From positions 186,001 to 250,000 of the forward strand of contig NZ_FOAZ01000002.1 in the NCBI RefSeq assembly GCF_900109465.1: 64,000 nt of DNA. Reading direction: 5' to 3'. The notes under the pieces are model-generated. The model saw nothing but the letters and a program-made list of their open reading frames with translations, was not told where the DNA came from and did not search any database. How positions within the stretch are numbered: the first letter of the stretch is position 1; each line of letters starts with the position of its first letter. The stretch is from Streptacidiphilus jiangxiensis. GTDB lineage: Bacteria > Actinomycetota > Actinomycetes > Streptomycetales > Streptomycetaceae. The position numbers and the translations under genes are program-made. Below, one piece after another: positions 43,404 to 59,933 of this stretch.

Positions 43404-45169
43404 TATCCCAGGACTCCCCGACGGGCGGCGCGACCGCCGCCCGCAGCGATCGTTACAAGTGGGTGGCGCTGTCCAACACCACGCTCGGCGTGCTGATCGC
43501 GACGGTGGACGCCTCCATCGTGATCATCTCGCTGCCCGCCATCTTCCGCGGCATCGGCCTCGACCCGCTCTCCCCGGGCAACATCGGCTACCTGCTGTGG
43601 ATGATGCTCGGCTACACGCTGGTGACGGCCGTGCTGGTGGTCGCGCTGGGCCGGCTCGGGGACATGTTCGGCCGGGTCCGCATGTACAACATCGGCTTCC
43701 TGGTCTTCTCCTTCGCCTCGCTCGCGCTCTCGCTGGACCCCCTGCACGCCGGAGCGGGCGCGCTGTGGCTGATCGGCTTCCGCATCGTCCAGGCCGTCGG
43801 CGGCTCGATGCTGACGGCCAACTCCGCCGCGATCCTGACCGACGCCTTCCCGGCGCGGCAGCGCGGCATGGCCCTGGGCATCAACCAGATCACCGCGCTG
43901 GCCGGCATGTTCCTCGGCCTGCTGGCCGGCGGCGTGCTCGCGGCGATCGACTGGCGCGCGGTGTTCTGGGTGAGCGTCCCGATCGGCGTGGTCGGCACCT
44001 TCTGGTCCTACCGCAGCCTGCGCGAGGTCGGCACCCGCAGGCCGGGCCGGATCGACTGGATCGGCAACATCACCTTCACGGCCGGCGCGGCGTGCCTGCT
44101 CGCCGGCGTCACCTACGGCATCCAGCCCTACGGCGGCCACTCGACGGGCTGGACCAACCCGTGGGTCCTCGCAGGCCTGTTCGGCGGCGTCGCGCTGCTC
44201 GCGGCGTTCTGCTTCGCCGAGACCCGGGTCGCCGACCCGATGTTCGAGCTCGGCCTGTTCCGGATCCGGGCCTTCGCGGCGGGGAACATCGCCGCACTGC
44301 TCATCGCGATCGCGCGCGGCGGCATGCAGTTCATGCTCATCGTCTGGCTCCAGGGCATCTGGCTGCCGCTGCACGGCTACAGCTTCGAGTCGACGCCGCT
44401 GTGGGCGGGCATCTTCATGCTCCCGCTGACCGTCGGCTTCCTCATCGGCGGTCCGGCGTCCGGCTACCTCTCCGACCGCTACGGCCCGCGCTTCTTCGCG
44501 ACGACCGGGCTGCTGCTCGTCGCCGCCTCGTTCCTCGGCCTGGTGGCGCTGCCCGTCGACTTCTCCTACACCGGGTTCGCGGCGCTGCTGTTCGTCAGCG
44601 GGCTGGGGCAGGGCATGTTCTCGGCCCCCAACACCTCGTCGATCATGGGCAGTGTGCCGCCGGAACGCCGCGGGGTCGCCTCCGGGATGCGCTCCACCTT
44701 CCAGAACTCCGGCAACGCGCTCTCCATCGGCCTGTTCTTCTCACTGATGGTCGTCGGCCTGTCCGGCACGCTCCCGCACACCCTGGACGCCGGCCTGCAG
44801 GGGCAGGGCGTCCCGGCCGCGACGGCCGGGCAGATCGCGGCGCTGCCGCCGGTCAGCACGCTCTTCGCGACCTTCCTGGGCAGCAACCCCATCGGCCATC
44901 TGCTCGGCCCGAGCGGCGTGCTGCACACGCTGCCCGCCCACGCGGTCGCCACGCTGACCGGCAACCGGTTCTTCCCGGAGCTGGTCTCGGACCCGTTCCA
45001 CCACGGCCTGGTGACGGTCTTCGGAGCGGCGGCCGCGATGGCCCTGGTCGCGGCGGTCGCCTCGCTGCTGCGCGGCCGGCCCGCGGCAGCGGCGGCGGCG
45101 CCCACCACGCCCGGGACGCCCCGGCCCACCACGGCGGGCGAGGGTGACACGACGGCGGCCCGGTCCTAG
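43400..45169 (+). CDS. DHA2-type MFS drug exporter (14 helices)
   Basis: 589-residue major-facilitator antiporter of the EmrB/QacA group. Motif C-like VDASIVIISLPAIF in helix 1, GRLGDMFGRVRMYNIG as motif A, and FRIVQAVGGSMLTANSAAIL in helix 4-5. It has about 14 helices and a Pro/Thr-rich C-tail. The GTG at 43400 overlaps the MarR stop. Likely proton-driven export of hydrophobic drugs or metabolites. Confidence 0.94.
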   Translation: MISQDSPTGGATAARSDRYKWVALSNTTLGVLIATVDASIVIISLPAIFRGIGLDPLSPGNIGYLLWMMLGYTLVTAVLVVALGRLGDMFGRVRMYNIGFLVFSFASLALSLDPLHAGAGALWLIGFRIVQAVGGSMLTANSAAILTDAFPARQRGMALGINQITALAGMFLGLLAGGVLAAIDWRAVFWVSVPIGVVGTFWSYRSLREVGTRRPGRIDWIGNITFTAGAACLLAGVTYGIQPYGGHSTGWTNPWVLAGLFGGVALLAAFCFAETRVADPMFELGLFRIRAFAAGNIAALLIAIARGGMQFMLIVWLQGIWLPLHGYSFESTPLWAGIFMLPLTVGFLIGGPASGYLSDRYGPRFFATTGLLLVAASFLGLVALPVDFSYTGFAALLFVSGLGQGMFSAPNTSSIMGSVPPERRGVASGMRSTFQNSGNALSIGLFFSLMVVGLSGTLPHTLDAGLQGQGVPAATAGQIAALPPVSTLFATFLGSNPIGHLLGPSGVLHTLPAHAVATLTGNRFFPELVSDPFHHGLVTVFGAAAAMALVAAVASLLRGRPAAAAAAPTTPGTPRPTTAGEGDTTAARS

Positions 45170-45189
45170 GACACCACGGGCCGCACGAT

Positions 45190-45223
45190 CCTGACCCGGC
45201 TCCCGGCTCGGAGCCGGGTCAGG
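45190..45223. terminator. Bidirectional terminator
   Basis: Perfect 14-bp stem CCTGACCCGGCTCC / GGAGCCGGGTCAGG with a 6-nt loop, overlapping the stop codon of the convergent reductase gene at 45219. Confidence 0.85.
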
Positions 45224-45779
45224 AACCCAGGCGGTAGTGGAGATGCACGACACCGCTGCGGAAACGCCGCTCGGCCACCAGCTCCAGCCGGGCGCGGAAC
45301 CCCTCCGGCAGCGCGCGCTTGCCGCCGCCGAGCACGATCGGCTGCAGGAACAGGTGGCACTCGTCCACGAGCCCCGCCTTCAACGCCACCCCGGCCAGCT
45401 CGGCGCCCCCGATGCTGAGGTCGCGCTTCGCCGCCTCCTTGAGCGCCCGCACCGCCTCGGGATCGAACTCCCGCTCGATCCGCGTGCCGACCGTCGCGGC
45501 CTCGTAGAGCGTCCGCGAGTAGACGACCTTCTCCGCCGCCCGCCAGATGGTCGCGAACTCCTGCGTCAGCCCGGGCAGGTCACCATCGGCGAACACGTCC
45601 TCCCAGGGCGCCATCGTCTCGTACATCCGCCGCCCGTAGAGGTACGTGCCGATCGGACGCTCGAGGTCGTTGATGTACGCGTGCACCTCGTCGTCCGGCG
45701 CGGACCAGGCGATCCGGCCCTCCACGTCCTCGACGTACCCGTCGAGCGAGGTGATCGCCGAGTAGACCAGCCTGGCCAT
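45219..45779 (-). CDS. Dihydrofolate-reductase-family protein (RibD C-like)
   Basis: 186-residue RibD_C/DHFR-fold protein: LVYSAITSLDGYVED at the N-terminus, YLYGRRMYETM and DLSIGGAELAGVALKAGLVDE with the NADPH-phosphate loop. True DHFR signatures for folate are absent, so an uncharacterised NADPH-dependent reductase is more likely. GGAGG lies five bases before the ATG at 45779. Confidence 0.92.
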   Translation of the reverse strand: MARLVYSAITSLDGYVEDVEGRIAWSAPDDEVHAYINDLERPIGTYLYGRRMYETMAPWEDVFADGDLPGLTQEFATIWRAAEKVVYSRTLYEAATVGTRIEREFDPEAVRALKEAAKRDLSIGGAELAGVALKAGLVDECHLFLQPIVLGGGKRALPEGFRARLELVAERRFRSGVVHLHYRLGS

Positions 45780-46005
45780 GCGACCTCCACCGTCCTCACA
45801 CGCTGTGCTGCTGCGACTCCTCCCTGTTCTACCCCAGCCCCACCGCCGTCCTCGCGCACCGCGCGGCAGCGCGCCTCCCCTGTACGAGCGGAACACCATG
45901 GGGGGCAAGCCGCGCAAGTCCCCCATCGGCAGCGGGAGCGCCCGGTAAACTCGACGCTCACCACAGCACAAGCCCTCTGTTCCAGGGCAGTTGAGGGGGA
46001 CACGG

Positions 46006-47769
46006 ATGCCCGGACGGATCCTCGCGAACCGGTACGAGCTCACCGCGCTGCTCGGCCGCGGTGGCATGGGCGAAGTCTGGACCGCCCGCGACACGCGCAT
46101 CGAACGCCAGGTCGCCGTCAAGCTCCTCAAACACGATCCCGGAACCGACGACGCGGCCGAGCTCTTCCTCCGAGAGGCGCGCACCGCCGGCGGCCTCACC
46201 CACCCGGGCATCGTCACGATCCACGACCTCGGCCAGGACGACGACGGCACCCTCTACCTCGTCATGGAACTTCTGACCGGGCGCGACCTCGCCCAGGTGC
46301 TCCGCCACGACGGGCCGCCCGCCCTCGACGCCGCACTCGACTGGACCGCGCAGATGTGCGACGCACTCACCGTCGCGCACGACGCGGGGATCGTCCACCG
46401 AGACCTCAAGCCCGCCAACGTGCTCCTCACCCCCGCCGGGACCGTCAAGATCCTCGACTTCGGGATCGCCCGGTACACCTCGACCATCACCCAGGCGAGC
46501 CGGATCATCGGCACCCCGCACTACATGCCACCCGAGCGCCTCATGGGCAAGACCGGCGACGGTCGAGGAGATCTCTACTCCCTCGGCTGCATGCTCCACG
46601 AACTCCTCACCGGAGCGACTCCGTTCACCGATCCGGACACCGCGGCGCTCATGTTCGCCCACGTCCAGCGAGCCCCAGAGCCCCCGAGCCTGCTCCGCCC
46701 CGGTCTGCCGCCAACCGTCGACGAGCTCGTCCTCGACCTGCTCGCCAAGGCCCCCGAAGACCGACCACCCACGGCCCGAGCCGTCACCGACCGGATCCGC
46801 AGCCTCATCTCCACCCCCGCCAAGCCAGGACGGGCCGGCTACTCACCGACCGTCATCGACCTGCCCGAGCCCGACCCGGCACCGGCCCTCGACCCGGCCG
46901 GTCCCGCACCCGCACCCGCACCCGCACCCGCCACGCCGACGCCGTCGATCGAGTCCCTCTCCCTGCCGGACGCGGCCTACGAACTCGGCCGCCTGCCCGT
47001 GCCGGCCGCGCTCGACGCGCTCCGGCGGCTCCCGCACCACCAAGTCCCCGCGCTCCTGGAGCGCGTGCCCGCACAACTCGCCGCCGAGGCTCTGCGCGAG
47101 ATGGGGATCGACCACCGGTGCGGCGTCCTGCAGCGGCTACCTCCCTCCGCCGCCGCGGCAGCGCTCGGTCAACTGAGCGACCGCCCCGACGAGATCGCAG
47201 CCGCCCTCAACAACCTCCCCGCGCCGAGCGCCCAGAGGATCGTCGAGCACCTGGCCCCCGAAGTCGCCGTCCCGCTCATCGACGCGCTCAACCCGGCCCT
47301 CACCAGCCAGATCCTCGGCTCGCTGCAACCACCGCAACGGGCCGCCGACGTCCTCACCCGCCTCGCGCCCCGCCCGGCGGCAGTTCTCCTCGAACGAGCC
47401 GGACCACGGCACGCCGCCCAACTGCTCCAACTGATGCCTCCCGTCCAAGCCGCAGCAGCCCTCGCCGGCATGGACGGCGACCTCGCCATCGGCACGCTCA
47501 ACCGCATGCCGCCCAGCAGAGCCGGCCAAGTCGTGGCGGTCCTGCCACCCCGCAGCATCGCCTCGACGCTCATGCGGGCCCGCACCGAAGTCGTGGAGTA
47601 CACCTTCGCCGCCCTGTCCCAGACACGAACCGTGGACATCCTCGAGCAACTCGGCCCCCTCGCCCGAACACTGCTCGAACGCATGGGCCCCCGAGCGGTC
47701 GACAACCTCACCCGCTGGCTCGGCCCCGAACTCGCTGCCCGCCTCCCTCAACGCCGCGACCCACGCTGA
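46006..47769 (+). CDS. Ser/Thr protein kinase with MgtE-N-like helical repeats
   Basis: 587-residue cytosolic kinase. The kinase domain (about 8-270) is complete: GRGGMGEVW (P-loop), VAVKLLK (VAVK Lys), HRDLKPAN with His131-Arg132-Asp133, DFG 151-153 and GTPHYMPPE. A Pro/Ala linker (about 280-312) leads to about 265 residues of short helical repeats with periodic L-P-P/A-A-x-x-L patterns (for example LNRMPPSRAGQVVAVLPP, LLQLMPPVQAAAALAGM), reminiscent of MgtE N-terminal or FliG-middle superhelices. No transmembrane helix, PASTA or PQQ sensor is present. GAGGGGG precedes the ATG. It lies 150 bp upstream of a large SARP gene on the same strand, recalling AfsK-AfsR signalling; the partnership is inferred. 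Confidence 0.92.
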   Translation: MPGRILANRYELTALLGRGGMGEVWTARDTRIERQVAVKLLKHDPGTDDAAELFLREARTAGGLTHPGIVTIHDLGQDDDGTLYLVMELLTGRDLAQVLRHDGPPALDAALDWTAQMCDALTVAHDAGIVHRDLKPANVLLTPAGTVKILDFGIARYTSTITQASRIIGTPHYMPPERLMGKTGDGRGDLYSLGCMLHELLTGATPFTDPDTAALMFAHVQRAPEPPSLLRPGLPPTVDELVLDLLAKAPEDRPPTARAVTDRIRSLISTPAKPGRAGYSPTVIDLPEPDPAPALDPAGPAPAPAPAPATPTPSIESLSLPDAAYELGRLPVPAALDALRRLPHHQVPALLERVPAQLAAEALREMGIDHRCGVLQRLPPSAAAAALGQLSDRPDEIAAALNNLPAPSAQRIVEHLAPEVAVPLIDALNPALTSQILGSLQPPQRAADVLTRLAPRPAAVLLERAGPRHAAQLLQLMPPVQAAAALAGMDGDLAIGTLNRMPPSRAGQVVAVLPPRSIASTLMRARTEVVEYTFAALSQTRTVDILEQLGPLARTLLERMGPRAVDNLTRWLGPELAARLPQRRDPR

Positions 47770-47919
47770 CCTCCGGCCGGCAACACGAGCGACGGGTGAA
47801 CCGGAGGCACTCGACCGAAATCCAGGAAGGAAACCTGATCAGAACTCGACTAGCCTGGCCCTCTGCTCAGAGCCTCTGTCTGAGCCCCGACAACGTGCAG
47901 AGAACGGGTAGACGAGGTC

Positions 47920-50900
47920 GTGCCGGTCATCGAGTTCCAGGTGCTCGGTCCCATGCGGGGCCGGTGCGGCTCCTCGGCGTTGGCGATGGGCAGCCCTCAG
48001 CAGCAGGCGATGCTGGCCACCCTTCTGCTGCGTCCGGGCCGTTCGGCCGGGACGGACGAGCTGATCGAGGCGTTGTGGGGGGACCGCTCCCCCAGCCGGG
48101 CGAAGTCGATCCTGCGCACCTACGCCTGGCGCTGGCGCAAGGCGCTGTGCGGGCAGAGCGATGCCGACGGCACCGAGATCCTGGTCTCGGTCTCCGGCGG
48201 CTACCTGGTCAACCTGCCCGAGCAGGCCGTGGACGCCACCCGGGCCGAACTGCTGGCCGCCCGCGCCGAACAGGCCCGCGCCGCCGAGCGCCTGCACGAG
48301 GCGGCGGAGCTGCTGCGCCAGGCGGTCGCTCTGTGGCAGGGCGAGCCGCTCGCCGGGATCCCCGGGCCCTTCGCGGAGCGGCAGCGGCGGCGCTACAGCG
48401 AGCTGCGGCTGAGCCTGGTGGAGCAGCGGGTCGCCCTGGACGTCGCCCTGGGCCGCGCTGCGGCGTGCACACCCGAACTGACCGCGCTGACCGCGGAGCA
48501 CCCGCTTCGTGAACGCCTGCACGCGCTGCTGATGCAGGCCCTTGCCCAGGACGGCCGCCAGGGGGACGCGCTGGCGTTGTATCAGGTGATGCGCCGCCGT
48601 CTCGCGCGCGAGCTGGGCGTCGACCCCGGTCCCGACCTGACCGCCGTCCATGCCGCCGTCCTCGAGGGCGGCGCCACGACGAGGGTGCCCGGGGCGACGA
48701 CGGCACTGACCACGCGTCCGGTCGGGGAGGGAACGGTCGCCCGCACCGACGGTGGCGGGGGCGCCGACGATGACGTCGCCGCCCGGTCACGACCCGCCGC
48801 CGCATCCGCCGGCGAGCGAACCGCCGACGGTGACGCCGAGCGTGCCGACGGTCCCGACCGCGGCAACCGACCCGGCCGTGCCGACAGCCACGCGGCGCAC
48901 GACCCGTCGCGCCGTCAGCCGCCCGTTCCCGCGCAGCTCCCACCACAGGAGCCGGACTTCGTCGGCCGCTCCGCGCTGGTCGCGGACCTCTGCGCGGCGC
49001 TGTCCGGGGTGGAGCGGACCGCGCCCCCCGTGCTGGCACTGTCCGGGATGGGAGGCGTGGGAAAGACCGCGTTGGCGCTGCACCTGGCTCACCGCAGCCG
49101 GGGCGGGTTCCCGGACGGTCAGCTCTACGTCGACCTGCGCGGCAACACCCGTAGCGCGGCGGACCCCGATGAGGTGCTCGGCGACTTCCTCTGCGCGCTC
49201 GGGCTCACGCCCGACGAGCTGCCGGAGGGGGCCGCGGCGCGCTCCGCGCTGTTCCGCTCGGCCGCCGACGGACGGCGGCTGCTGATCGTGCTCGACAACG
49301 CCGCAGGCGCGGCGCAGGTCCGCCCGCTGCTGCCCGGAGCAGCCGCCTGCGCCGTCGTGCTGACCAGCAGGATGCGACTCGCCGGACTGCCGATCACGCT
49401 CCAGCCGGACATCGGCGTCTTCGCGCCGGACGAGGCACTGCGCCTGCTGCGTGCCGTGGTCGGCGATGCCCGGGTGGACGCGGAGCGGGACGCCGCGGCC
49501 GAACTGGTCCGGGCCTGCGGCCGACTGCCGCTGGCCGTCCGGATCGTGGCGGCGCGCCTGGCCGCCAGGCCGTCCTGGACGGTGCGGGCGCTGGTCGAGC
49601 GACTGGTGGACGAGTGCCGTCGGATCGATGAGCTGCGCATCGGCGAGCTGGCGGTGTCCGCCGCCTTCGAGCTCGGCTACGGCCAGCTGACGGAGGCCCA
49701 GGCGCAGGCCTTTCGACTGCTCGGTGCGGCGGACGGAGCCGAGTTGGGCCTGCCCGCCGCCGCGGCGCTGCTGGACACCGACCCCGCCCGCGCCGAGGAG
49801 CTGCTGGAGTCGCTGGTCGACATGGCGATGCTGGAGTCCCCCGCCGAGACCCGTTACCGGCACCACGACCTGCTCCGCGACTTCGCCCGCCGCCTCTCCT
49901 CCCGCACCGCGCCAGGCGAGGAGCGGGCCGCGCGAGCCCGTCTGCTCGACCACCTGCTCGCCCGTGCGTGCTCGGCGTTCGAGCAGGCGGTCCCGGGCGA
50001 CGCCATCCGCGAGTCCCTCGGCTCGCTGGTGCCGTCCCTGCCCGGACCCGCCTTCGGCAGCGTCGCGGAGGCGCGCGTCTGGGTCCAGGCGGAGAGCCCC
50101 GGCGCGGTCGCGCTGGCGTCCCGGATCGCACGGGAGTCACTCCAGGAGGACCCCCAGCCCGACGCACGCTCACAGTCCGAGGACTGCCTGCCCCGATACG
50201 CGGAACTGCTCCCCCGGGCGGTCGACCTGCTGGTCACGCTCAGCCCCTTCGGCCCGGGCCCCCGGCGCCGACAACTCGCCGAGACCGTGGACGAGCTGGC
50301 TCGCGCCGCGTTCCGGCACGGGGAGCGGCGGGCCGAGGGCCGGGCCCGGTTCCTGGCGGGCAACATCGCCGTGAGCGCCGGTCGGCCCGAGGTCGCCGAG
50401 CCGGAGACGCTGCGCGCGGTGGAGCTGTGCCGGGCCGACGGCGACCTGGTGATCCTGCGTCAGGCTCTCAACGACCTCGGGGCGATCGCCCACCGCCAGG
50501 GTCGGGACGAGCAGGCGGTGCTGCGGTTCACCGAGGCCGTCGAGCTGGCCCGTACCCTCGGCCACCGCAGCGGCGAGACCGCCTCCGCGCTGAACGCCGC
50601 GGTCTCCCGGATCCGCGCGGGGCGCGCCGACCAGGTCCTCGACCAGTGCGGCGCACTGCTCGCCCGTCTGCGGGCGGAGGGCGACGGCCCGGGCACGGCG
50701 CACACGCTCTTCGTGCTCGGCCTCGCCCACGACGCGTCCGGCCGGCCGGACGACGCCGTCACGCACCTGGAGGCGTCAGCGGAGGCGTGGACCGCGGCCG
50801 GTCTTCCCGGCCGCGGTGCGCACGCCCACTTTCGGCTGGCCGCCGTCCTGCACCGCGCCGCCGCGCACGGGTCCGGGGAGGGGTCGAAGGACGCACTCGC

Positions 50901-51060
50901 GCAGGCCCGGCGGCACGCGGAGACGGCGCTCGCCGAGTTCGAACGCTCCGGCAGCCAGGCGGACCGGACCGCCGTGACTCTGCTGCTCGATCAGCTGCCC
51001 GGCTCCGCCGGGCTTCCGGCCGCGTCGAAACTCACTGGGGATGACCCGGACCACCGGTGA
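47920..51060 (+). CDS. AfsR-type SARP regulator (wHTH-BTAD, NB-ARC, TPR)
   Basis: 1046-residue pathway-specific or global activator. Winged HTH (about 1-95, beginning VIEFQVLGP), BTAD (about 100-245), linker, then an ATPase/STAND domain: Walker A GMGGVGKT (376-383), LLIVLDNAAG (Walker B region), RLPLAVRIVAARLAARPSW, and a TPR-rich C-terminus (about 780-1040) with repeats such as LNDLGAIAHRQGRDEQAVLRF. SARPs bind direct heptamer repeats near -35. The GTG at 47920 is the natural start of the LGP motif. It is upstream of the peptide/P450 pair and downstream of the kinase; its 3' end overlaps an antisense small gene by 29 bp. Confidence 0.95.
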   Translation: MPVIEFQVLGPMRGRCGSSALAMGSPQQQAMLATLLLRPGRSAGTDELIEALWGDRSPSRAKSILRTYAWRWRKALCGQSDADGTEILVSVSGGYLVNLPEQAVDATRAELLAARAEQARAAERLHEAAELLRQAVALWQGEPLAGIPGPFAERQRRRYSELRLSLVEQRVALDVALGRAAACTPELTALTAEHPLRERLHALLMQALAQDGRQGDALALYQVMRRRLARELGVDPGPDLTAVHAAVLEGGATTRVPGATTALTTRPVGEGTVARTDGGGGADDDVAARSRPAAASAGERTADGDAERADGPDRGNRPGRADSHAAHDPSRRQPPVPAQLPPQEPDFVGRSALVADLCAALSGVERTAPPVLALSGMGGVGKTALALHLAHRSRGGFPDGQLYVDLRGNTRSAADPDEVLGDFLCALGLTPDELPEGAAARSALFRSAADGRRLLIVLDNAAGAAQVRPLLPGAAACAVVLTSRMRLAGLPITLQPDIGVFAPDEALRLLRAVVGDARVDAERDAAAELVRACGRLPLAVRIVAARLAARPSWTVRALVERLVDECRRIDELRIGELAVSAAFELGYGQLTEAQAQAFRLLGAADGAELGLPAAAALLDTDPARAEELLESLVDMAMLESPAETRYRHHDLLRDFARRLSSRTAPGEERAARARLLDHLLARACSAFEQAVPGDAIRESLGSLVPSLPGPAFGSVAEARVWVQAESPGAVALASRIARESLQEDPQPDARSQSEDCLPRYAELLPRAVDLLVTLSPFGPGPRRRQLAETVDELARAAFRHGERRAEGRARFLAGNIAVSAGRPEVAEPETLRAVELCRADGDLVILRQALNDLGAIAHRQGRDEQAVLRFTEAVELARTLGHRSGETASALNAAVSRIRAGRADQVLDQCGALLARLRAEGDGPGTAHTLFVLGLAHDASGRPDDAVTHLEASAEAWTAAGLPGRGAHAHFRLAAVLHRAAAHGSGEGSKDALAQARRHAETALAEFERSGSQADRTAVTLLLDQLPGSAGLPAASKLTGDDPDHR

Positions 51061-51232
51061 TGATCGTGTTCCAGTCCGTCACAGTGCCGTCGCTGCTGAA
51101 CGCCACCGCGGTGGGCCGTGGGGCCGGGCGGACCGTGGCCGTGGCGAGCACCAGGCCGAGGAGCGCCCCACATCCACCGGCCAGCGCGACGATTCGGACG
51201 GGCAGGGCTCGGGGCGCGGGGCGAGGTCGCAT
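51032..51232 (-). CDS. Small exported peptide next to SARP
   Basis: 66 residues: basic N-terminus (MRPRPAPRALPVRIVAL), a hydrophobic export helix (GGCGALLGLVLATATV) and a short mature part ending DGTVTDWNTIITGG followed by PGHPQ. AAGGAA lies six bases before the ATG at 51232. It is divergent from the peptide precursor at 51531 with SARP-like repeats facing it, and convergent (29-bp overlap) with the SARP gene. Small secreted peptides with DxxWN-type tails near SARPs are common in streptomycetes; role unknown. It could be a signal peptide or a second precursor. Confidence 0.62.
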   Translation of the reverse strand: MRPRPAPRALPVRIVALAGGCGALLGLVLATATVRPAPRPTAVAFSSDGTVTDWNTIITGGPGHPQ

Positions 51233-51324
51233 GGACGTTCCTTCGAGGGTGCGGGGCGGTACGGGTGCGGGGCGCTGCACGGACGGGTCGTCGTCCGTTG
51301 TGCGGGTGAGCATGCCAGAAACAC

Positions 51325-51342
51325 GTCTACGTCCGATCTATG
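51325..51342 (-). promoter_or_regulatory. SARP-like heptamer pair facing the small exported peptide gene
   Basis: On the minus strand CATAGAT and CGTAGAC lie 11 bp apart, the classic SARP spacing. They lie upstream of the gene starting at 51232 and share sequence with the plus-strand array at 51408, so one SARP could drive both directions. Confidence 0.6.
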
Positions 51343-51407
51343 CCCAGCTCGTCCCGGTCTTTCCGGGCTCGCGGGGTGGTCCGGGACCGGCTTCCACGGC
51401 AGCCCTC

Positions 51408-51445
51408 CGTAGACGGGCGTAGATCGGCCGTTGACCGCCGTTCGG
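51408..51445 (+). promoter_or_regulatory. Four SARP-like heptamer direct repeats upstream of peptide precursor
   Basis: CGTAGAC (51408), CGTAGAT (51418), CGTTGAC (51429) and CGTTCGG (51439) are spaced 10, 11 and 10 bp, i.e. one per helical turn on one face of the DNA, as in AfsR/ActII-ORF4 sites. The array ends 85 bp before the precursor ATG. A clear -10 was not recognised. The match to the adjacent SARP gene makes it the probable activator. Confidence 0.68.
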
Positions 51446-51530
51446 CAGCCTTTCCTCCTGTCAGGCACACACCGCAACCCGCGGGGTGTGCACGTGCGCA
51501 CCGCCCTGCCCAGGGAGAAAGGGGACAGAG

Positions 51531-51611
51531 ATGAAGGTCCTGTTCGCCGTCCGCAACGCCGTCTTCGCCCAGAAGAGCCTGAAGGCCAGCGTCTGGTACC
51601 TGTGGTACTGA
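51531..51611 (+). CDS. Atropopeptide (tryptorubin-like) RiPP precursor
   Basis: A 26-residue peptide gene beginning MKVLFAVRN and ending SVWYLWY. AAAGGGG lies six bases before the ATG. The last five residues, W-Y-L-W-Y, match the pattern of tryptorubin A (core AWYIWY), the founder of the atropopeptides, in which one P450 makes aryl C-C and C-N cross-links between Trp and Tyr side chains. The leader contains KSLKAS just before the core, basic as in that family. The downstream P450 at 51735 is the expected modifying enzyme. I therefore call the core VWYLWY. Product, leader peptidase and exact cross-links are inferred. Confidence 0.86.
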   Translation: MKVLFAVRNAVFAQKSLKASVWYLWY

Positions 51612-51656
51612 GCCGACGGACCGCAGCCCCGCTCCCCGCGGGGTGATGCATACTCC

Positions 51657-51707
51657 GGGCCCGCGCCCGGCACGGTCTCTCTTCGCCCCCGTGCCGGGTG
51701 CGGGCCC
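51657..51707. terminator. Attenuator-like hairpin between precursor and P450
   Basis: A 19-bp stem with one G-U pair (arms GGGCCCGCGCCCGGCACGG and CCGTGCCGGGTGCGGGCCC) and a 13-nt loop lies 45 bp after the precursor stop. Such hairpins often let precursor transcript outnumber enzyme transcript in RiPP clusters. Partial readthrough would be needed for the P450, since no separate promoter is obvious. Confidence 0.78.
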
Positions 51708-51734
51708 TTTCGGCCCACCTCCCGGAGACCCGCG

Positions 51735-52826
51735 ATGCCTGCTGCCCCCACCCTGACCACCGGCCGGACCACGGTGTTTTCACCGCGCCTGGCCGCGCTG
51801 CTCGACAACCACCTCGGCCAGGACGCGTTCCGCCTGGAGCCCGACACCGTGGGGGTCGCCGGCCACGACCTGATCGACCGGATACTCGCCGCCCGCCGGG
51901 CCACCGAGACGGAACGCCCCACCTTCAAGCCGCTGCACGGCCGTTCCATCGCGCGCAGCGAGGCGTCGTCGGTGACCCAGACCGTCGGCCGCGACGTGCG
52001 CCGGGCGCTGGCCTCCCCGAACCCGATCCCCGCCAACGCGGATCTCTCCGGGCCTTGGCCGCTCACCGGCCACATGCTGCTGCGCGACATGGTCCTGGGT
52101 GGCGACCCCGGCCGGCTCAAGATCCTGATGAGCCGTAACCTGGAGCTGACGCCCCTCCTGACCTGGACCGTCATCGCCGCCGGGGCGGCCCTGCCACTCC
52201 GCCTGCGCGGCGAGGCCGCCGCCACTGCCGGCAGTCTCGCCGCGCTGACCGCCGAGGCCGGCACCTACCAGGACCGCCGCCATGCGATGGGCATCTACCG
52301 GCGCGCCGCCGCGCCGGTCTGCTTCACCGTCTCCACGCTGGTGGCCAACGCACTGTGGCTGGGCGCGCCGTTCGACGAGGGCGTCTCGAACCGCAACATC
52401 GTCCTGGAGTCGCTGCGACTGCTACCGCCGTCCTGGAACATCCTGCGCCGCGCGTCGCCGGAGTACCCCGGGCTCGACCCGCGGATCGGCACGGCCGACG
52501 ACGTACTGGTGCTGCCACTGCTGTCACACCGCGACCCAGGGCTGTGGGAGGACCCGCACGAGTTCCGCCCCGAGCGCTGGGACAGCCTCGACCCGGACCA
52601 CACCCCGGGCTACCTGCCCTTCGGCCACGTCTCCGAACGGTGCTGGGGCCGGCACATGGTGATGCCGCTGGCCGAGCTCCTGCTGGACCGTCTCCGCACG
52701 GACGGCTTGACCGTGGACCCGGACCAGCGCCGCGCAAAGGTCCCCCTGCTGGGCCTGCTCGGCGTGGAGGAGGTCCGCGTCGTCCCGGACCGGATGCGCC
52801 ACGGCTCACGTGCGGACCGGGGCTGA
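51735..52826 (+). CDS. Cytochrome P450 of the atropopeptide cluster
   Basis: 363-residue soluble P450, some 40 residues shorter than typical class I enzymes. The K-helix ExxR is E225-S-L-R228 and the haem ligand is Cys303. The Cys loop reads F296-G-H-V-S-E-R-C303-W-G, with Val and Glu where most P450s have Gly and His/Arg. The central helix lacks a clean A-G-x-D/E-T-T oxygen-activation motif (the nearest segment is AGTYQDRRHAMG). Both oddities fit a specialised aryl-coupling P450. It follows the precursor gene by 123 bp across a strong hairpin. Ferredoxin partners are not encoded nearby. Confidence 0.92.
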   Translation: MPAAPTLTTGRTTVFSPRLAALLDNHLGQDAFRLEPDTVGVAGHDLIDRILAARRATETERPTFKPLHGRSIARSEASSVTQTVGRDVRRALASPNPIPANADLSGPWPLTGHMLLRDMVLGGDPGRLKILMSRNLELTPLLTWTVIAAGAALPLRLRGEAAATAGSLAALTAEAGTYQDRRHAMGIYRRAAAPVCFTVSTLVANALWLGAPFDEGVSNRNIVLESLRLLPPSWNILRRASPEYPGLDPRIGTADDVLVLPLLSHRDPGLWEDPHEFRPERWDSLDPDHTPGYLPFGHVSERCWGRHMVMPLAELLLDRLRTDGLTVDPDQRRAKVPLLGLLGVEEVRVVPDRMRHGSRADRG

Positions 52827-52872
52827 GTGGACACCCCGGCCGCCACGGGGTCGGCGCGCGCGATCGGCCCGG

Positions 52873-53730
52873 CTACGGCTTGCGGGCGAGGCCCGCGTAG
52901 GCCATGACCTCGTGGTCGGGCAGCGGGCGCTCGTCGGGGTCCGGGTCCGGGTGCCAGTGGGTGATCAGGGCGACGCCGGGGTCGTCCAGCTCCAGGCCCG
53001 TGAAGAAGCGGGCGACCTGTTCACGGGTGCGCAGGTGGTTCTCGATGCCCGCCTCGCGGTAACGGCGCGAGGCGACGGCCGCGTGTTCGGGCGCGGTGTC
53101 GGCCGTTCCGGCCGTCAGCGCGAGGAAGCTGCCCGAGGGCAGGGCCGCGACGAGCTCCGCCACCAGGGGCAGGGCGGCCTCGTCGGAGAGGAAGTGCACG
53201 AGGTTGATCAGGGTCAGTGCGACGGGCTGCCGCAGGTCGAGGGTCTCGCGCAGCGCCGGGTCCGCGAGGACCTTGCCGGGCTCGCGCAGGTCGCCGTCGA
53301 TGTAGGCGGTGCGCCCCTCGGGCGCGCCGGTCAGCAGGGCGCGGGCGTGGGCGAGGACGATGGGGTCGTTGTCGACGTAGACGATGCGGCAGGACGGGTC
53401 GACGTCCTGCGCGACCTCGTGCAGGTTCGGTGCGGTGGGTATGCCCGTGCCCACGTCGAGGAACTGCCGGATGCCGTGCACCGCGGCGAGCCGGCGCACC
53501 ATCCGGTGCATGACCGCGCGGGCGGCCAGCGCGGAGTCGTGCGCGCCCGGCCACTCCGCGAGAATCTTGTCGCCCGCGGCCCGGTCCGCGGCGAAGTTGG
53601 TCTTGCCGCCCAGCATGTAGTCGTAGACGCGCGCGGAGTGCGCGATGTCGGTCCGGAGGTCCACCCGCTCGACCTCGTCGTCCGGTGACGGCCTCATCCA
53701 GTCACCGGCCCCGGCCTCGGGATTCGCCAC
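52873..53730 (-). CDS. SAM-dependent methyltransferase, PF04672 family
   Basis: 285-residue paralogue of the protein at 37147: HSARVYDYMLGGKTNFAADRA, IRQFLDVGTGIPTAPNLHEVA, IVYVDNDPIVLAHARALL and ITHWHPDPDPDE. GTG start at 53730 with GGAGG/GGAG upstream. It is convergent with the P450 gene and not co-transcribed with it, so a role in the peptide pathway is possible but unsupported. Substrate unknown. Confidence 0.9.
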   Translation of the reverse strand: MANPEAGAGDWMRPSPDDEVERVDLRTDIAHSARVYDYMLGGKTNFAADRAAGDKILAEWPGAHDSALAARAVMHRMVRRLAAVHGIRQFLDVGTGIPTAPNLHEVAQDVDPSCRIVYVDNDPIVLAHARALLTGAPEGRTAYIDGDLREPGKVLADPALRETLDLRQPVALTLINLVHFLSDEAALPLVAELVAALPSGSFLALTAGTADTAPEHAAVASRRYREAGIENHLRTREQVARFFTGLELDDPGVALITHWHPDPDPDERPLPDHEVMAYAGLARKP

Positions 53731-53816
53731 AGCTCCACCTCCGCGCTCGTTCCTCGGCGTCCACTGAACCACAGTTGGCGGTGCCCCGTCAGCCCGGTTC
53801 TCGATCTTGACGACAC

Positions 53817-54713
53817 TCAGACGGCCCGGCCGTCGTCCGCAAGAACCGCACGCAGTGTCCGCTCGCCGATGCCCGCCATCAACGGGCTGTCCGCGGAGTG
53901 CGTGTGCAGGACCAGGGCCAGCACGAGCGCCCAACCTCTCGCCCGGGTCCAGGCGTCGTCATCGGCCCGGCCGTAGGCGCGGCGCAGCACCGACCGCCGG
54001 TGGGCGTCGGGGAAGAGCATCCACGCCACGGCCAGGTCCGTGGCCGGGTCGCCGGAGGTGAGGTCGCCGAAGTCGATGACCGCGCTGATCCGGCCCGCGT
54101 CGACGAGGATGTTGGCCGGATGCAGGTCACCGTGGAGCCACAGCGGCGGCCCGGTCCGGGCGGGCGCGGTGACGGCGGTCTGCCAGACCCGTAGCGCGGC
54201 GGCGCGGTCGGAGGCGTCGGCGAGGTGCTCCAGGCCGGCGTGGACGCCCTCGGCGCGACCGACCAACGGGATGCCGCGGAAGACGTTCACCGGCGCGTCG
54301 GGTGCGGCCGGAAGGTGCAGGGCGGCCAGGAAGCCACCCAGCGCGGCGGCTTCGGAGTCCGGGAGCGTCGCGTGTGCGGCGTTGTCGCCCGGCAGGTACG
54401 GCACGACGCTCCACGCCCACGGGAAGCCCTCCGCGGGCCGCCCGACCCGCACCGGCGCGGGGACCGGCAGCGGCAGGCGTCCGGCCAACTCCGGCAACCA
54501 GCGCTGCTCGTGGGCGAGCAGTTCGGCCGCGGCCGCTCGGCGCGGCAGCCGGACCAGCAGGTCGGCGCCGAGCCGGCAGACCAGGTTGTCCCACCCGTTG
54601 GCCAGCACCTCGACCGGCAGTCCGGCGAGATCGGGGTGCTGCTCGGCGAGCAGTCGGCGCACGAGCGCGACGGAGACCTCGACCTCGGCGGCCGGCATGC
54701 GGTGAACGGTCAT
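53817..54713 (-). CDS. Aminoglycoside-phosphotransferase-family kinase
   Basis: 298-residue APH-fold small-molecule kinase. Catalytic loop LHGDLHPANILVD (Asp base and Asn metal ligand) and IDFGDLTSGDPATDLA (DFG-like metal site) are intact; N-terminal NGWDNLVCRLG and LLVRLPRR hold the ATP-binding Lys/Arg region. It could confer antibiotic resistance or phosphorylate an endogenous alcohol. The ATG at 54713 lies a few bases after TAGGGT, a leaderless arrangement. Confidence 0.9.
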   Translation of the reverse strand: MTVHRMPAAEVEVSVALVRRLLAEQHPDLAGLPVEVLANGWDNLVCRLGADLLVRLPRRAAAAELLAHEQRWLPELAGRLPLPVPAPVRVGRPAEGFPWAWSVVPYLPGDNAAHATLPDSEAAALGGFLAALHLPAAPDAPVNVFRGIPLVGRAEGVHAGLEHLADASDRAAALRVWQTAVTAPARTGPPLWLHGDLHPANILVDAGRISAVIDFGDLTSGDPATDLAVAWMLFPDAHRRSVLRRAYGRADDDAWTRARGWALVLALVLHTHSADSPLMAGIGERTLRAVLADDGRAV

Positions 54714-54765
54714 GTCCCGACCCTACGGTGACGCGCGCGCTGCGAGGACCGGACGGTGCCGGGGA

Positions 54766-55221
54766 TCAGCGCGGCACGATCATCTCCACGCCGAGTGTGA
54801 GGCAGACGACGCCGGCCAGCGCGACGAGCACGCAGAAGAACAGCACCACCACCGTGTCGCCCGCCCCCGGCTCCTCCCCCGCGACGAAGGCCCACTCGGG
54901 CCGGTCCGGGAGGTAGCGCAGGGGCACGCGCTCGCCGAGCACGCGGGAGCGGCCGGTGCCGTCCTCGACGCGGAACTCGCGGCCGTCCGGGGCGTAGAAC
55001 CAGACGACGGTGCGGGTGATCGCCTCGCGGCCCTGGTCGCCGGGCTCCCGGTCGACGTCCAGCACCCGGCCCTCGGCCGTCAGCCCCTCGTCGAGCGCCC
55101 GCAGCCGCCAGAACCAGCGGTTGACCAGCCGCACCCCGATGGCCCCGGCGACCAGGGTGAGCCCCGCCCCCAGGACGCCCAGGACCAGGCCGTCCGCGCT
55201 GTGCGCAGGCCAACCGGACAT
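54766..55221 (-). CDS. DUF3592 membrane protein
   Basis: 151 residues. Two membrane helices (about 11-30 and 125-147) flank a DUF3592 beta domain (AEGRVLDVDREPGDQGREA, RVPLRYLPDRPEWAFVAG). Function unknown; anchored in the membrane with the domain on one face. ATG at 55221. Confidence 0.9.
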   Translation of the reverse strand: MSGWPAHSADGLVLGVLGAGLTLVAGAIGVRLVNRWFWRLRALDEGLTAEGRVLDVDREPGDQGREAITRTVVWFYAPDGREFRVEDGTGRSRVLGERVPLRYLPDRPEWAFVAGEEPGAGDTVVVLFFCVLVALAGVVCLTLGVEMIVPR

Positions 55222-55285
55222 GCCACCCCCGTGCGGCCGTTCCCCGATGCTGGTGTGACGCCGGAACAACCCGCGCGGTTCCGGC

Positions 55286-57439
55286 TCACGGTTGTGCCAT
55301 CGTGCCCTGGAGTGACGCGCCTGTCACCGTTCCGGCGAGGGTGACCGTCGTCGTGGGCGCGACGGTGTTCCAGCTCGCCGTCACGGTGAGGTCCGGTGCG
55401 CCGTCGCGGTGGACGGTCAGGCGGGCGGTGACGGTGCCGTCCGTCCGGTCCCAGCGGGCCGTTCCGTCCGTGGTCGCGTCCCCGACCCACCGCGTGCCGT
55501 GGAAGGCGAAGGAGACGGCGGAGCCGCCGGAGCCGCCGGACGCGGAGGCGGACCAACTCCCGCCCCGCGGGCCGAGGTCGTGGGTGCCGCTCAGGTAACC
55601 GTAGCGGGTGAGAGCGTCGTCGACGGTCGCCACGCCCGCCGCGGCCGCCCGGAGTGCGGACGGATCCGCCTGGTTGCCGGAGCCGGCGGCGGCCGGTGCG
55701 ACGTCGGCGAGCAAGGCCGGGTAGGCGGCGAGGGCGGCGATCGGCGTGGTTCCCGCCGTGCAGCCGGTGTCGAGGGAGCCGAGCGAACCCGGGTCGGCGG
55801 TGAACTGCCGGTACAGGCGCTGCCCGCAGGCCTCGGGCCCGGGCCACGCGGCGTCCGCCATGGCCGTGATGTGGGTCAGGTTCGGCACGCCGACGAAACG
55901 GGCCGAGGGGCCCATCTGCTGGGCGACGCGCTGCCCGTCGACGGCCGGGGTGAGCGAGTCGAGGTCGCCGCCGAGGACGAGGACGGGCACGCTCCCCGGC
56001 ACCAGCGGCGGGGTGGCCGTGACCGGCGGGTCGGTGTGGACGGGTGCGGGCCAGTCCAGGCAGCCGGTGAAGGTGTTCGTGTAGGCGTTCATGCCGGTCC
56101 ACTCGGACGCGGTGAACGGCGAGAAGGCGGAAGCCGGTTGGCCCGCCACGGCCTGCCGCAGCTGCTCCGCGCGCCGGTCGGGCGGTGCGCTCCTGTCGAA
56201 CAACTGCGGGTAGTCGGTGCAGGCGACGGCGAAGTACAGGCCGTCGGAGTAGGCGGGCGGAGGCGGCGTGGTGTTGTCGTAGCCGACGGACTGCGCGGCC
56301 AGACGCAGCAGCGGCGCCGGGTCGCCGTCGTCGAGGACGGCGTCGGCGGCGGCCGGCAGGCCCTTGTAGACGGCCGGATCCGAGCCCGCGTTGGTGACGA
56401 GGTCGAGCAACGTGGCGGTGGTGACCGTCTCGCCGACGGTGTGTCCGTTCAGGTCCGTGGTGGTGCCGCTGACCGGCGCGGAGCGCAGCAGCGTGGCGAG
56501 TTGGGAGATCGCCGCCCACGGGTCGCGCGGGGCACCGGCCGCGCAGGCGCTGGAGCGCGCGCAAGCGAGCCCGAAGGCGGTACGCGCGGTGGCCAGGCTG
56601 CTGCGGTACCACGGGTCCAGGCCGAGGACCTCGTAGGAGGCGTCCAGCGTCACGGAGTTCAGGGTCCGGGGGTATCGCGAGGCGTAGCTCTGGGCGAACC
56701 ACGTGCCGTAGGAGTCCCCGTAGAGGTCGACCTTGGGCAGGGCCAACTGCGCCAGCACGTCGGCGAGGTCACGGGCGGCCTGGGCGGTCCCGAACAGGTC
56801 CGCGGCGTGGACCCAGCTGCCGTCGGCGTGCTTCCAGGTGTGGTCGAGCTGGTCGCCGCAGGCACCGACAGCCTGACGGAACGCATCGGTGTCGGTGGAT
56901 CCCTGAGCGTCCTGGAGGGCCTGGCAGGTGATCGCGCCGGAGCGGCCGGTGCCGCGCAGGTCGAGGACGAGCAGGTTCCGCTGCGTGCGCAGCGGGCCGA
57001 GCATGGCCAGGTAGGCGGCGCGGGAGGAGGTGGAACCCCACCCCGGCCCACCGTCCACGGCGACGACGGTGCCGACAGGGTCGGCAAGGCCTGTGGGGCC
57101 GGTGGCCGGGAACCACTCGAAGGCCACGCCGATGGTCGGGCCCGTCGGATCGGAGCGGTCCAGCGGCTCCTGCACCTTGCCGCACCAGCCGGACGGCTTG
57201 GACCCGCACGGTGTCAGTCGCACCGAGCCGACCTGGAGGGCCCCGCCTGCCGCCGTACCCGACGTCGTACCCGCCGTGGTACCCGCCGCCGTACCCGACG
57301 CCACGTCCGTCCGAGCTGCCGGGCGCGACGGCGGCGCCCGGTGCCCCGGCACCGCGAGGTCCGCCGAGACCGCCTGGGCGGCGGGCAGCGTCAGAGCCGT
57401 GGCGAGCACGGCGATGAGCGCGCGGGCGCGTAACCGCAT
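55286..57439 (-). CDS. Secreted TAP-like alpha/beta-hydrolase peptidase with extra beta domain
   Basis: 717-residue exported enzyme related to streptomycete tripeptidyl aminopeptidases. Signal peptide to about QAVSA; catalytic Ser in LYGDSYGTWFAQSY near residue 243; Asp in VLVLGGDLDSLTP and His in NLTHITAMA complete the triad. Cys residues suggest disulfides. A C-terminal segment after about residue 570 (SGTHDLGPRGGSW to the end) is beta-rich, an extension not present in the basic TAP family. A Gly/Thr/Ala low-complexity stretch follows the signal peptide. AGGAGG lies six bases before the ATG. Released outside the cell for peptide processing. Confidence 0.9.
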   Translation of the reverse strand: MRLRARALIAVLATALTLPAAQAVSADLAVPGHRAPPSRPAARTDVASGTAAGTTAGTTSGTAAGGALQVGSVRLTPCGSKPSGWCGKVQEPLDRSDPTGPTIGVAFEWFPATGPTGLADPVGTVVAVDGGPGWGSTSSRAAYLAMLGPLRTQRNLLVLDLRGTGRSGAITCQALQDAQGSTDTDAFRQAVGACGDQLDHTWKHADGSWVHAADLFGTAQAARDLADVLAQLALPKVDLYGDSYGTWFAQSYASRYPRTLNSVTLDASYEVLGLDPWYRSSLATARTAFGLACARSSACAAGAPRDPWAAISQLATLLRSAPVSGTTTDLNGHTVGETVTTATLLDLVTNAGSDPAVYKGLPAAADAVLDDGDPAPLLRLAAQSVGYDNTTPPPPAYSDGLYFAVACTDYPQLFDRSAPPDRRAEQLRQAVAGQPASAFSPFTASEWTGMNAYTNTFTGCLDWPAPVHTDPPVTATPPLVPGSVPVLVLGGDLDSLTPAVDGQRVAQQMGPSARFVGVPNLTHITAMADAAWPGPEACGQRLYRQFTADPGSLGSLDTGCTAGTTPIAALAAYPALLADVAPAAAGSGNQADPSALRAAAAGVATVDDALTRYGYLSGTHDLGPRGGSWSASASGGSGGSAVSFAFHGTRWVGDATTDGTARWDRTDGTVTARLTVHRDGAPDLTVTASWNTVAPTTTVTLAGTVTGASLQGTMAQP

Positions 57440-57525
57440 GGCCACCTCCTGGGATTCGAACCGTGTACGGAGCTTCGCCCCTGGTGAGGTCTCCCCCGCC
57501 CGGCCCTCCGGGAACCACGCCCGGG

Positions 57526-58092
57526 TCACCCCGTACCGGTGACGGCCCTCAGCTGCTCCAGCGCGTCGCGCAGCAGCGGACGCATGTCCTGCTCCTCGTC
57601 GCCCGCGACCCACTGCCCGAACGCGACGTGGAAGACGGCGATCCCGGCCTCGGCCGCGAGGCTCGCGGCCGGTTCGGCGAGGCCACGTCCCCGCAGGGTC
57701 TCGGCCAGGGCGGCGGAGAGGGTGGTCATCTTGATCAGCTCGCGCTCGCGGAGCTCGGGGTTGGCGGCGATCACCGCCTGCCGGCGCCGGGCGTGGGCGT
57801 GCCGACCGCGGAACACCTCCCCGACGGCGTCCAGCGCGGCCCCGACGGCCTCCAGCGGCGTCGCGCCCTGCGGCGCGGCGGCGGCACCGTCGACCATGTG
57901 CTGCTGCAGCAGGAAGGAGCCACCGAAGAGCACCTCCCGCTTGTCGGCGAAGTGCCGGAAGAAGGTCCGCTCGGTCAGCCCGGCCCGCTCGGCGATCTCG
58001 GCGACGGTGGTCCGCTCGAAGCCGCGCTCGACGTACAGCTCCAGCGCCGCCTGCTCCAGCCTGCCGCGCGCGTTCGGCTCCCATCGACCCAT
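57526..58092 (-). CDS. TetR-family regulator
   Basis: 188-residue repressor. The HTH (about 12-52) reads ALELYVERGFERTTVAEIAERAGLTERTFFRHFADKREVL in two overlapping pieces, the E-R-T-F-F-R-H-F form of the SCO-type TetR group. C-terminal ligand domain helices follow. It lies 86 bp upstream of the TAP-like peptidase gene on the same strand and may control it. The ATG at 58092 lacks a strong ribosome site. Confidence 0.92.
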   Translation of the reverse strand: MGRWEPNARGRLEQAALELYVERGFERTTVAEIAERAGLTERTFFRHFADKREVLFGGSFLLQQHMVDGAAAAPQGATPLEAVGAALDAVGEVFRGRHAHARRRQAVIAANPELRERELIKMTTLSAALAETLRGRGLAEPAASLAAEAGIAVFHVAFGQWVAGDEEQDMRPLLRDALEQLRAVTGTG

Positions 58093-58199
58093 GGCCCCGA
58101 TCCTAGGCGACCCCGTACGGCGGGCCAGGGACCGACGGATCGCGCACACTGGAAACCGGTGGTGGACCCGACAGCACACCTCGCGGCGAGGAGACGGCC

Positions 58200-58445
58200 A
58201 TGGCCCGGGACGACGGCATCGCCTACGAGCTGGTCTTCCGCTCGCCCGGCGACGGGAGCGAGGACGTCGTGGTCGTCCACGCGACCGGCGCCACCGGCCC
58301 GGGCGGGCACCCCGTCTACGCCGACGCCAGCGGCATCATCCGCGCCGAGATCAGCGACCGCGCCGAGGCCCGCATGCTGCCCACCGGCGGCCACCAGGCG
58401 CTCCCCCGCCCCGTTGCCTGCCGCACGCACCGCGACGGCGGATAA
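58200..58445 (+). CDS. DUF6296 protein
   Basis: 81 residues. YELVFRSPGDGSEDVVVVHATG and PVYADASGIIRAEISDR match the small actinobacterial DUF6296 family, whose function is unknown. GAGGAGA lies before the ATG. It is divergent from the TetR gene. Confidence 0.8.
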   Translation: MARDDGIAYELVFRSPGDGSEDVVVVHATGATGPGGHPVYADASGIIRAEISDRAEARMLPTGGHQALPRPVACRTHRDGG

Positions 58446-58624
58446 GCCGACGTCAAAGCTCCGTGCAGGGGCGTACGGAGAGCGTCAAAGCGGCAAGGGG
58501 ACGGCTCCCGGTCAGGGTGGAATGGGTCGCGGCGGTGGCCTGGGCGCCCAGGCCACCGCATCCGTCATCGCGCTCGGTCCAAGAGAGCCGCACGAGAGCC
58601 AAGAGAAGAAGAAGGTCGTCGGAC

Positions 58625-59152
58625 ATGTCGCAGCCCGGTCGCGTCGTCGTCGGTGTGAGTGGGACCCCCAGCAGTCTGCAGGCGCTGCGTGTCGCCATGG
58701 GCGAGGCACAGCGAGAGGGGGTCGGCCTGCGGGCGGTGGTCGCCTGGGTGCCGGTGGGCGGCGAGATCGCCTACCGGCGGGCGCCCTGCCCGGAGCTGCT
58801 GCGGATCTGGGAGCAGGAGGCCCAGTGGCGGCTGCGCAACGCCTTCGACGAGGCGTTCGGCGGCGTGCCGGACGTCCCGGCGCTCGAGCTGGTCTCGCTG
58901 CGGGGCAGCGCCGGCCCGGCGCTGGTGGCCGCCGCCGACCGCCCGGACGACCTGCTCGTGCTCGCGGCCGGGCCGCGTGGCGGCCTCGCCCGTCTCACGC
59001 ACGGCGCCACGGCCCGCTACTGCGTCGCGCACGCCGCCTGCCCCGTCCTCACCGTCCCGGCCCCGGCGCTCCTCGCCGACCTCCCCCGCCGCCTGCGCCA
59101 CCGCCGCCCGGTCTCCACCGGGTCCGGCACCCCGCTGACACTCGCCTGCTAG
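58625..59152 (+). CDS. Universal-stress-protein-family protein
   Basis: 175 residues in a single UspA domain: RVVVGVSGTPSSLQALRVAM at the N-terminus and LTHGATARYCVAHAACPVLTVPA at the C-terminus, the latter carrying the G-x-x-A-R-Y-x-x-x-H-A-x-x-P-V form of the nucleotide-binding loop. GAAGG lies about eight bases before the ATG. Such proteins bind ATP or AMP during stress. Its stop codon abuts a transposase remnant. Confidence 0.87.
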   Translation: MSQPGRVVVGVSGTPSSLQALRVAMGEAQREGVGLRAVVAWVPVGGEIAYRRAPCPELLRIWEQEAQWRLRNAFDEAFGGVPDVPALELVSLRGSAGPALVAAADRPDDLLVLAAGPRGGLARLTHGATARYCVAHAACPVLTVPAPALLADLPRRLRHRRPVSTGSGTPLTLAC

Positions 59153-59153
59153 G

Positions 59154-59315
59154 CCGTCTCTCATCGCCTACCGAGGTCGGAACGTCATCGAGCGGTGCTT
59201 CGCCCGGTTGAAGCAGTTCCGCGCCGTGGCAACCCGGTTCGACAAGCCCGCGGCCTGCTACCAGGCAGGGGTGGTCATCGCGGCACTGATCCTCCGTCTC
59301 GGGGCCGACAGCTGA
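59154..59315 (+). pseudogene. IS5-type transposase C-terminal remnant
   Basis: About 54 codons starting right after the stress-protein stop code for YRGRNVIERCFARLKQFR and a tail ending LRLGADS, the C-terminal end of IS5-family DDE transposases (with the E of the DDE triad in NVIERC). Everything upstream is missing and no start codon is present. Confidence 0.85.
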
Positions 59316-59324
59316 TCATCGTGT

Positions 59325-59753: not shown

Positions 59754-59933
59754 GGCGCCAGCCTTCCGGGCAGCCCGCCACGAGCTCAACGGCATTTGGC
59801 CCTGCAAGATCAATTAAGAGAGACGACCTATGGCCCGAACGCACCTGACGATGCTCTGCGCGCACCCGACAGCGGCCCGCCTCAGCCGGAGCCGGACAGA
59901 AACCCGGGCGGGGCGGGTCTTACGATCAGGCCC

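Follow-up and report, generated by a model that had tools for sequence, protein, structure and literature searches.

The 64,000-nucleotide stretch of Streptacidiphilus jiangxiensis DNA analysed here (the window) very probably carries a two-gene cluster of the atropopeptide type, in which a 26-residue precursor and a single P450 would give a cross-linked hexapeptide, and which is likely to be switched on by the SARP regulator encoded beside it (Table 1). The preliminary description had proposed a 26-codon frame with a ribosome site at 51531 and a P450 behind it, and both lie exactly where it placed them. The interval that it gave, 51531-52826, is right for these two genes but omits the conserved SARP gene and two conserved boxes upstream.

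Table 1. Coordinates of the features discussed
Feature	Position	Strand	Remarks
Ser/Thr protein kinase gene	46006-47769	+	MgtE_N-like tail; directly upstream of SARP gene
AfsR-like large SARP regulator gene	47920-51060	+	Pfam Trans_reg_C, BTAD, NB-ARC, TPR
Left conserved upstream box GTCTACGTCCGATCTATG	51325-51342	+	conserved in four SARP-bearing loci
Promoter-like box	51420-51451	+	TAGATCG (51420), TTGACCG (51431), CAGCCT (51446-51451); predicted SARP operator, -10-like hexamer
Atropopeptide precursor gene	51531-51611 (stop included)	+	26 aa; open reading frame, NCBIfam NF038372 match
Hairpin between precursor and P450	51657-51707	+	stem 51657-51675 / 51689-51707
Atropopeptide-modifying P450 gene	51735-52826	+	363 aa, PF00067; ExxR 225-228, heme-loop Cys303
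SAM methyltransferase	frame 52873-53934	-	downstream of P450
Phosphotransferase	53817-54713	-	downstream of P450
Alpha/beta hydrolase + TAP-like (tripeptidyl aminopeptidase type) domains	frame 55286-58084	-	~3 kb downstream of P450
Sister loci L101, L102, L110-L113, L155-L167	precursor ~1180-1400, P450 from 1501	minus-strand matches turned	

Results

A precursor of the atropopeptide family

Atropopeptides have been defined by their class P450, a KSLK motif in the leader and a Trp at core position 2 (PMC11450843), and with more than 650 clusters published (PMC11450843) the present locus adds to a known family. The product of the short gene, MKVLFAVRNAVFAQKSLKASVWYLWY, is made up of the leader MKVLFAVRNAVFAQ, with KSLK at residues 15-18, and the core VWYLWY at residues 21-26, in which the hallmark Trp occupies position 2; the ribosome site, AAAGGGGA, ends 5 nt ahead of the ATG. 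Having KSLK and Trp at core positions 2 and 5, the precursor also belongs to the bitryptide subfamily, described as xWxxWx cores with KSLK (PMC11450843). It scores 45.7 bits against the NCBIfam model NF038372 (tryptorubin_fam; curated cut-off 33) and is the sole match to this model in the 9.54-Mb genome at E values up to 10. The expectation that annotation usually misses such genes needs correcting, since this curated NCBI model recognises precursors of this kind.

When the precursor gene was compared with its counterpart in Streptacidiphilus fuscans, 79 of 81 nucleotides were identical and both differences were synonymous. The other three stretches compared were less conserved (5' flank 82/117 aligned positions, precursor-P450 gap 87/122, P450 906/1038). 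Synonymous-only change next to less conserved flanks is what would be expected of a conserved peptide that is translated, and this pattern and the NF038372 score led us to reject a chance reading frame.

For a wider comparison, relatives of the P450 were collected by scanning one genome per species, which gave 116 pattern matches, of which 86 were confirmed and the best 80 kept. A short precursor was found upstream on the same strand in 79 of these best 80 loci (70 by a strict motif script and nine by a looser one); the homologous short gene that had been anticipated beside P450 orthologues is therefore present in nearly all of them. In the one locus without a precursor (L074), the match is partial and close to the end of a contig. 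The Streptacidiphilus loci named in the set are those of S. fuscans, S. anmyonensis and S. melanogenes; over 3078 nt, three further genomes assigned to the genus of the window match them without a difference. In Xanthomonas sp. GPE 39 (L077), tandem precursors with the cores SWPHWY and AWEGYISY stand 520 and 344 nt ahead of the match to one P450. That the short gene of the window is untranslated, or its cluster dead, is in our view very improbable, given the family score, the ribosome site, the synonymous-only change, the 79/80 linkage and the intact catalytic residues described below.

Across 81 precursors, comprising that of the window and those of 79 of the best 80 loci (two from L077; one spurious frame in L012 was excluded), the first core residue is Ala in 72, Ser in six, Val in two and Thr in one. 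The two Val-first cores are those of this locus and S. fuscans, and the commonest cores are AWYIWY and AWYLWY with 22 occurrences each. Hence the core, which had been presented as a variant at two positions, is rare in its Val1 (2/81), whereas its Leu4 is common (AWYLWY, 22/81). The DNA pattern for VWYxWY followed by TGA occurs in two of 394 genomes of the host's bacterial family, again this one and S. fuscans. A precursor above the NF038372 cut-off was detected in 48 of the 394, and all 28 further precursors that were read from fetched loci among those 48 genomes start with Ala. We found no characterised precedent for Val at core position 1, and the string VWYLWY is absent from open-access main texts, to which that search was limited; it may already be on the published list of 683 clusters, which lies outside a main-text search.

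The P450 groups with atropopeptide enzymes

The P450 gene follows the precursor after a 123-nt gap, with GGAG 7 nt ahead of its ATG. In a tree of 89 sequences (the window, 78 of the 80 loci, eight further loci and two named proteins), the P450 pairs with that of S. fuscans (support 100/99) inside a 47-row group (100/97) that also contains the S. laurentii and S. jumonjinensis enzymes. These two, to which it is 72-73% identical, are presumed from their species names to be LauB1 and JumB. Its heme loop, FGHxxERCWGR, is unusual and typical of the family, and both this loop and ExxR are intact. Residues E225, R228, F296, G297, E301, R302, C303, W304, G305 and R306 are invariant in 81/81 canonical P450s, and His298 is kept in 80 of the 81. 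Nested in the atropopeptide P450 clade and with the family heme loop intact, the enzyme is the class-defining P450 of the definition given above. The tree thus answers the phylogenetic check suggested in the preliminary description, as it places the enzyme inside the atropopeptide P450s and not with unrelated families. Wrong P450 kinship was rejected on this basis, and the original reading as an atropopeptide cluster is supported by this nesting as well as by the precursor score and the short gene that accompanies 79 of the 80 P450s.

A 95%-identical protein cluster to this P450 is found on a 45,761-nt metagenome contig (P0002). An AlphaFold2 model of the enzyme (pLDDT 85.0, pTM 0.87) has a P450 fold and resembles P450s generally, with TM scores to the query of 0.45-0.59 among the 50 matches listed. 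No solved relative from the family was recognised among these 50 structure matches or among the best 60 of 154 sequence matches. Gly126, which is private to the two Val-core P450s, was set aside as it has no placement relative to the substrate.

None of the three minus-strand genes downstream of the P450 had a tblastn match (E 1e-10) in the 80 loci, and they were rejected as tailoring genes. The hydrolase frame among them is of a peptidase type that could trim peptides.

The predicted product

In atropopeptides, the leader helix with KSLK has been modelled as an anchor to the P450; the family P450 forms biaryl and C-N links between Trp2, Tyr3, Trp5 and the peptide backbone; and proteases encoded elsewhere set the core free and may remove its first residue (PMC11450843, PMC12352619). 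In the window, KSLK in the leader would likewise hold the P450, which would join Trp2, Tyr3 and Trp5 of the core via a biaryl bond and C-N bonds. A protease coded outside the cluster would then free VWYLWY minus four hydrogens ([M+H]+ 925.4243), and an aminopeptidase may take off Val to leave WYLWY minus four hydrogens ([M+H]+ 826.3559). The loss of four hydrogens is predicted by analogy with varsorubin B1, in which it accompanies three bonds (PMC11450843). WYLWY minus four hydrogens has the same mass as WYIWY minus four hydrogens, the composition expected for tryptorubin B, so that only the mass of the hexapeptide would tell a VWYLWY product from tryptorubin B.

A single P450 of this family can cross-link the same core in several ways, and there are members with one bond (PMC11450843), which makes it conceivable that VWYLWY is cross-linked once, as in scabrirubin, or in several patterns, as in the varsorubins, and that the product is not tryptorubin-shaped. 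However, amyxirubin B and tryptorubin B were the products of the nearest characterised enzymes by the tree (presumed JumB and LauB1, respectively), and VWYLWY departs from AWYLWY at residue 1 only; we consider such a product unlikely.

A large SARP gene and two boxes are conserved with the cluster

The SARP gene reads toward the precursor, and its product scores 757.8 bits against the NCBIfam AfsR model, under the cut-off of 1430. Comparison of window positions 44001-60000 with the three other Streptacidiphilus loci that have the cluster gave DNA similarity from 47815-47934 to 52780-52781. The block conserved in the four genomes consists of SARP, precursor and P450 and nothing else, and the flanking genes differ. 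SARP-like genes are present in all 14 genomes of the genus, and a SARP gene lies beside the cluster in each of the four that bear it; in the other three of these, the best match to the SARP is the gene immediately upstream of the precursor. Among the best 80 of 86 P450 loci, three proved to have a SARP domain ahead of the precursor, and these are those same Streptacidiphilus loci (upstream scope at least 3 kb in 77 of the 79 loci having a precursor).

Two boxes stand between the SARP gene and the precursor. The left one is an inverted copy of CGTAGAC / CGTAGATCGG letters further down and has the four-species form GTCTACGNCCGATMTAYG. The second contains two repeats 11 bp apart that end 8 bp before CAGCCT, a spacing that is the same in 4/4 SARP-bearing loci, where the pattern reads TAGAYCN5TTGAMCN9CAGNNT; the repeats are imperfect and the candidate -10 is CAGNNT-like. 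In published descriptions, SARP sites consist of direct repeats spaced by 11 or 22 bp, the 3' one lying 8 bp from the -10 (PMC10936776, PMC4393881). Both boxes occur in 4/4 SARP-bearing loci and in 0/76 other precursor loci (600 nt upstream), and the second box has three matches in 1.29 Mb of loci, counting both strands, and a single one in the genome that contains the window. As the patterns were derived from these same four loci, all of one genus, shared descent could explain both SARP and box.

From this arrangement, the SARP beside the cluster is likely to switch on the precursor: it would bind the 11-bp-spaced repeats at 51420-51437, whereupon precursor transcription would start. A competing view to which we give appreciable, though lesser, weight is that the SARP is a long-standing neighbour, that the box is an ordinary promoter part and that control is as elsewhere in the family. 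The SARP association is confined to one genus, and no SARP domain was found upstream in 77 of the 80 P450 relatives, most with at least 3 kb upstream, so that clusters of this kind do not need one. Against this view stand the conserved block, which ends at the SARP start and the P450 end between differing flanking genes, the spacing of the second box, which fits SARP sites, and its single occurrence in the genome.

The Ser/Thr kinase was rejected as an AfsK-like partner; it matched one of the 80 loci (L017, 33%), and none of the SARP-bearing ones. A 66-aa frame with a signal-peptide-like start (51032-51232, minus strand) overlaps, in antisense, the last part of the SARP gene and has no convincing relative in the loci searched (best outside its own genome, E 0.1).

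A predicted hairpin in the precursor-P450 gap

The gap between the two genes contains a 19-bp stem closed by a 13-nt loop; TTTC, which makes a weak U run, comes next, and the 123 nt of the gap fold to -74.7 kcal/mol (z -4.73). For 80 such gaps the mean z is -2.79, with 57/80 below -2, compared with -0.59 (11/80) for stretches of equal length ahead of the precursor and -0.15 (1/80) for stretches inside the P450 gene. Both controls are stretches of the same loci; gaps between other genes may often hold terminators as well. The fold is unremarkable (z above -1.5) in 15 of the 80 gaps, and the stem letters vary between clades.

Covariation was assessed in 14 of the 80 gaps, picked for look-alike stems. 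Thirteen consensus pairs are kept in 92.9% of cells, compared with 35-48% when slid, and four are changed on both sides. The covariation score was reached by 5/500 shuffles and the number of both-side-changed pairs by 1/500. Among the five covariation measures, the number of further pair types, reached by 56/500 shuffles, was unremarkable, and covariation contributes little to the RNAalifold score (-0.24 of -23.71). The gap hairpins of eleven loci (L006, L009-L012, L019, L021, L022, L028, L029 and L080) have in common an almost invariant arm around GACATCGTTGTCC, which differs from the GGGCCCG type found in the window and is a candidate for another kind of hairpin or a site for a protein.

Judged from its predicted fold, the hairpin may be a partial terminator or a transcript-end stabiliser favouring the precursor. 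It would end or trim part of the transcripts, and much precursor and little P450 would be made as a result. The strong stem right after the precursor could also be a full terminator of the precursor transcript, with the P450 under its own promoter, but the stem has no long U run and the ~27 nt between it and the P450 start leave no room outside it for a complete promoter; this we find improbable.

Sister clusters with a Trp-His core

P450s 39-40% identical to that of the window, found in two other genomes of the genus, led us to a sister group whose enzymes (six rows in the tree) split from the canonical ones with support 100/100 and, where members were compared, share 39-41% identity with the P450 of the window. 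All 19 sister loci examined have a short upstream gene with a DEDLA-like motif and the core [AS]WxxH[VL]I, in which Trp and His are invariant. A hairpin is predicted after the precursor in the five of the 19 that were folded, without shuffle control. These clusters, from Streptomyces, Kitasatospora and Streptacidiphilus, resemble the window in their short precursor, single P450, core Trp2 and hairpin, but have the DEDLA-like motif in place of KSLK, the core [AS]WxxH[VL]I and the heme loop FGFxGARCWAK. We rejected the idea of an unreported family, since the cyptide roseovertin, with a Trp-to-His link, is known (PMC12299652); because of that link, the sister clusters are probably roseovertin-type cyptides and not new.

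One genome (G235) contains an xWxxH cluster (L113) and, ~0.5 Mb away, a canonical precursor of the KSLK/AWYFWY type (L148). Two P450s (P0207 and P0208), one of them from Amycolatopsis sp. cg5 and both 45-46% identical to an xWxxH P450, stand between the xWxxH group and the canonical P450s.

Discussion

Atropopeptides are unusually rigid ribosomal peptides. A likely dedicated activator would offer a handle on the timing of peptide production, and expressing the SARP would be a simple way to try turning the cluster on. The core VWYLWY provides a position-1 variant for trimming tests. A ribosome site added before the P450 of the sva cluster raised the yield 100-fold (PMC11450843), and the gap hairpin, which is a strong one in most of the relatives examined, may likewise influence yield.

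The words 'SARP', 'promoter', 'terminator', 'hairpin' and 'intergenic' are absent from the main texts of PMC11450843 and PMC12352619, and 'regulat(or)' is confined to the reference lists. The present cluster is a further member of a known family, set apart by the rare Val cap and by two likely layers of control on which these main texts are silent. A bolder proposal, which we put forward with considerable doubt, is that this is the first atropopeptide cluster with its own SARP switch, a precursor:P450 ratio set by the hairpin and a Val cap that resists trimming; the bulky Val, found in two species, would withstand the trimming seen with Ala, and the hexapeptide itself would be the end product.

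Among the closest known systems is that of S. fuscans NEAU-YB345 (L001), which has an identical 26-aa precursor, a P450 89% identical, a SARP, both boxes and a gap hairpin, in the same layout; we found no report of its product. Among characterised clusters, tryptorubin B came from lauA together with lauB1, and amyxirubin B from the jum cluster (PMC11450843). Like the tryptorubin, amyxirubin B (jum) and laurentirubin (lau) clusters, the present one consists of a short KSLK/Trp2 precursor followed by the class-defining P450; unlike them, it has Val at core position 1 and an adjacent SARP gene with a SARP-type box, features of control that go unmentioned in the main text of PMC11450843, and while the lau cluster contains a second P450, here there is one. 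With large SARPs such as AfsR, as described in PMC10936776, the regulator shares the domain order SARP, NB-ARC/NOD, TPR and the predicted target spacing of 11 bp and 8 bp, but, in contrast to AfsR, it falls under the AfsR equivalog cut-off and sits in a RiPP cluster.
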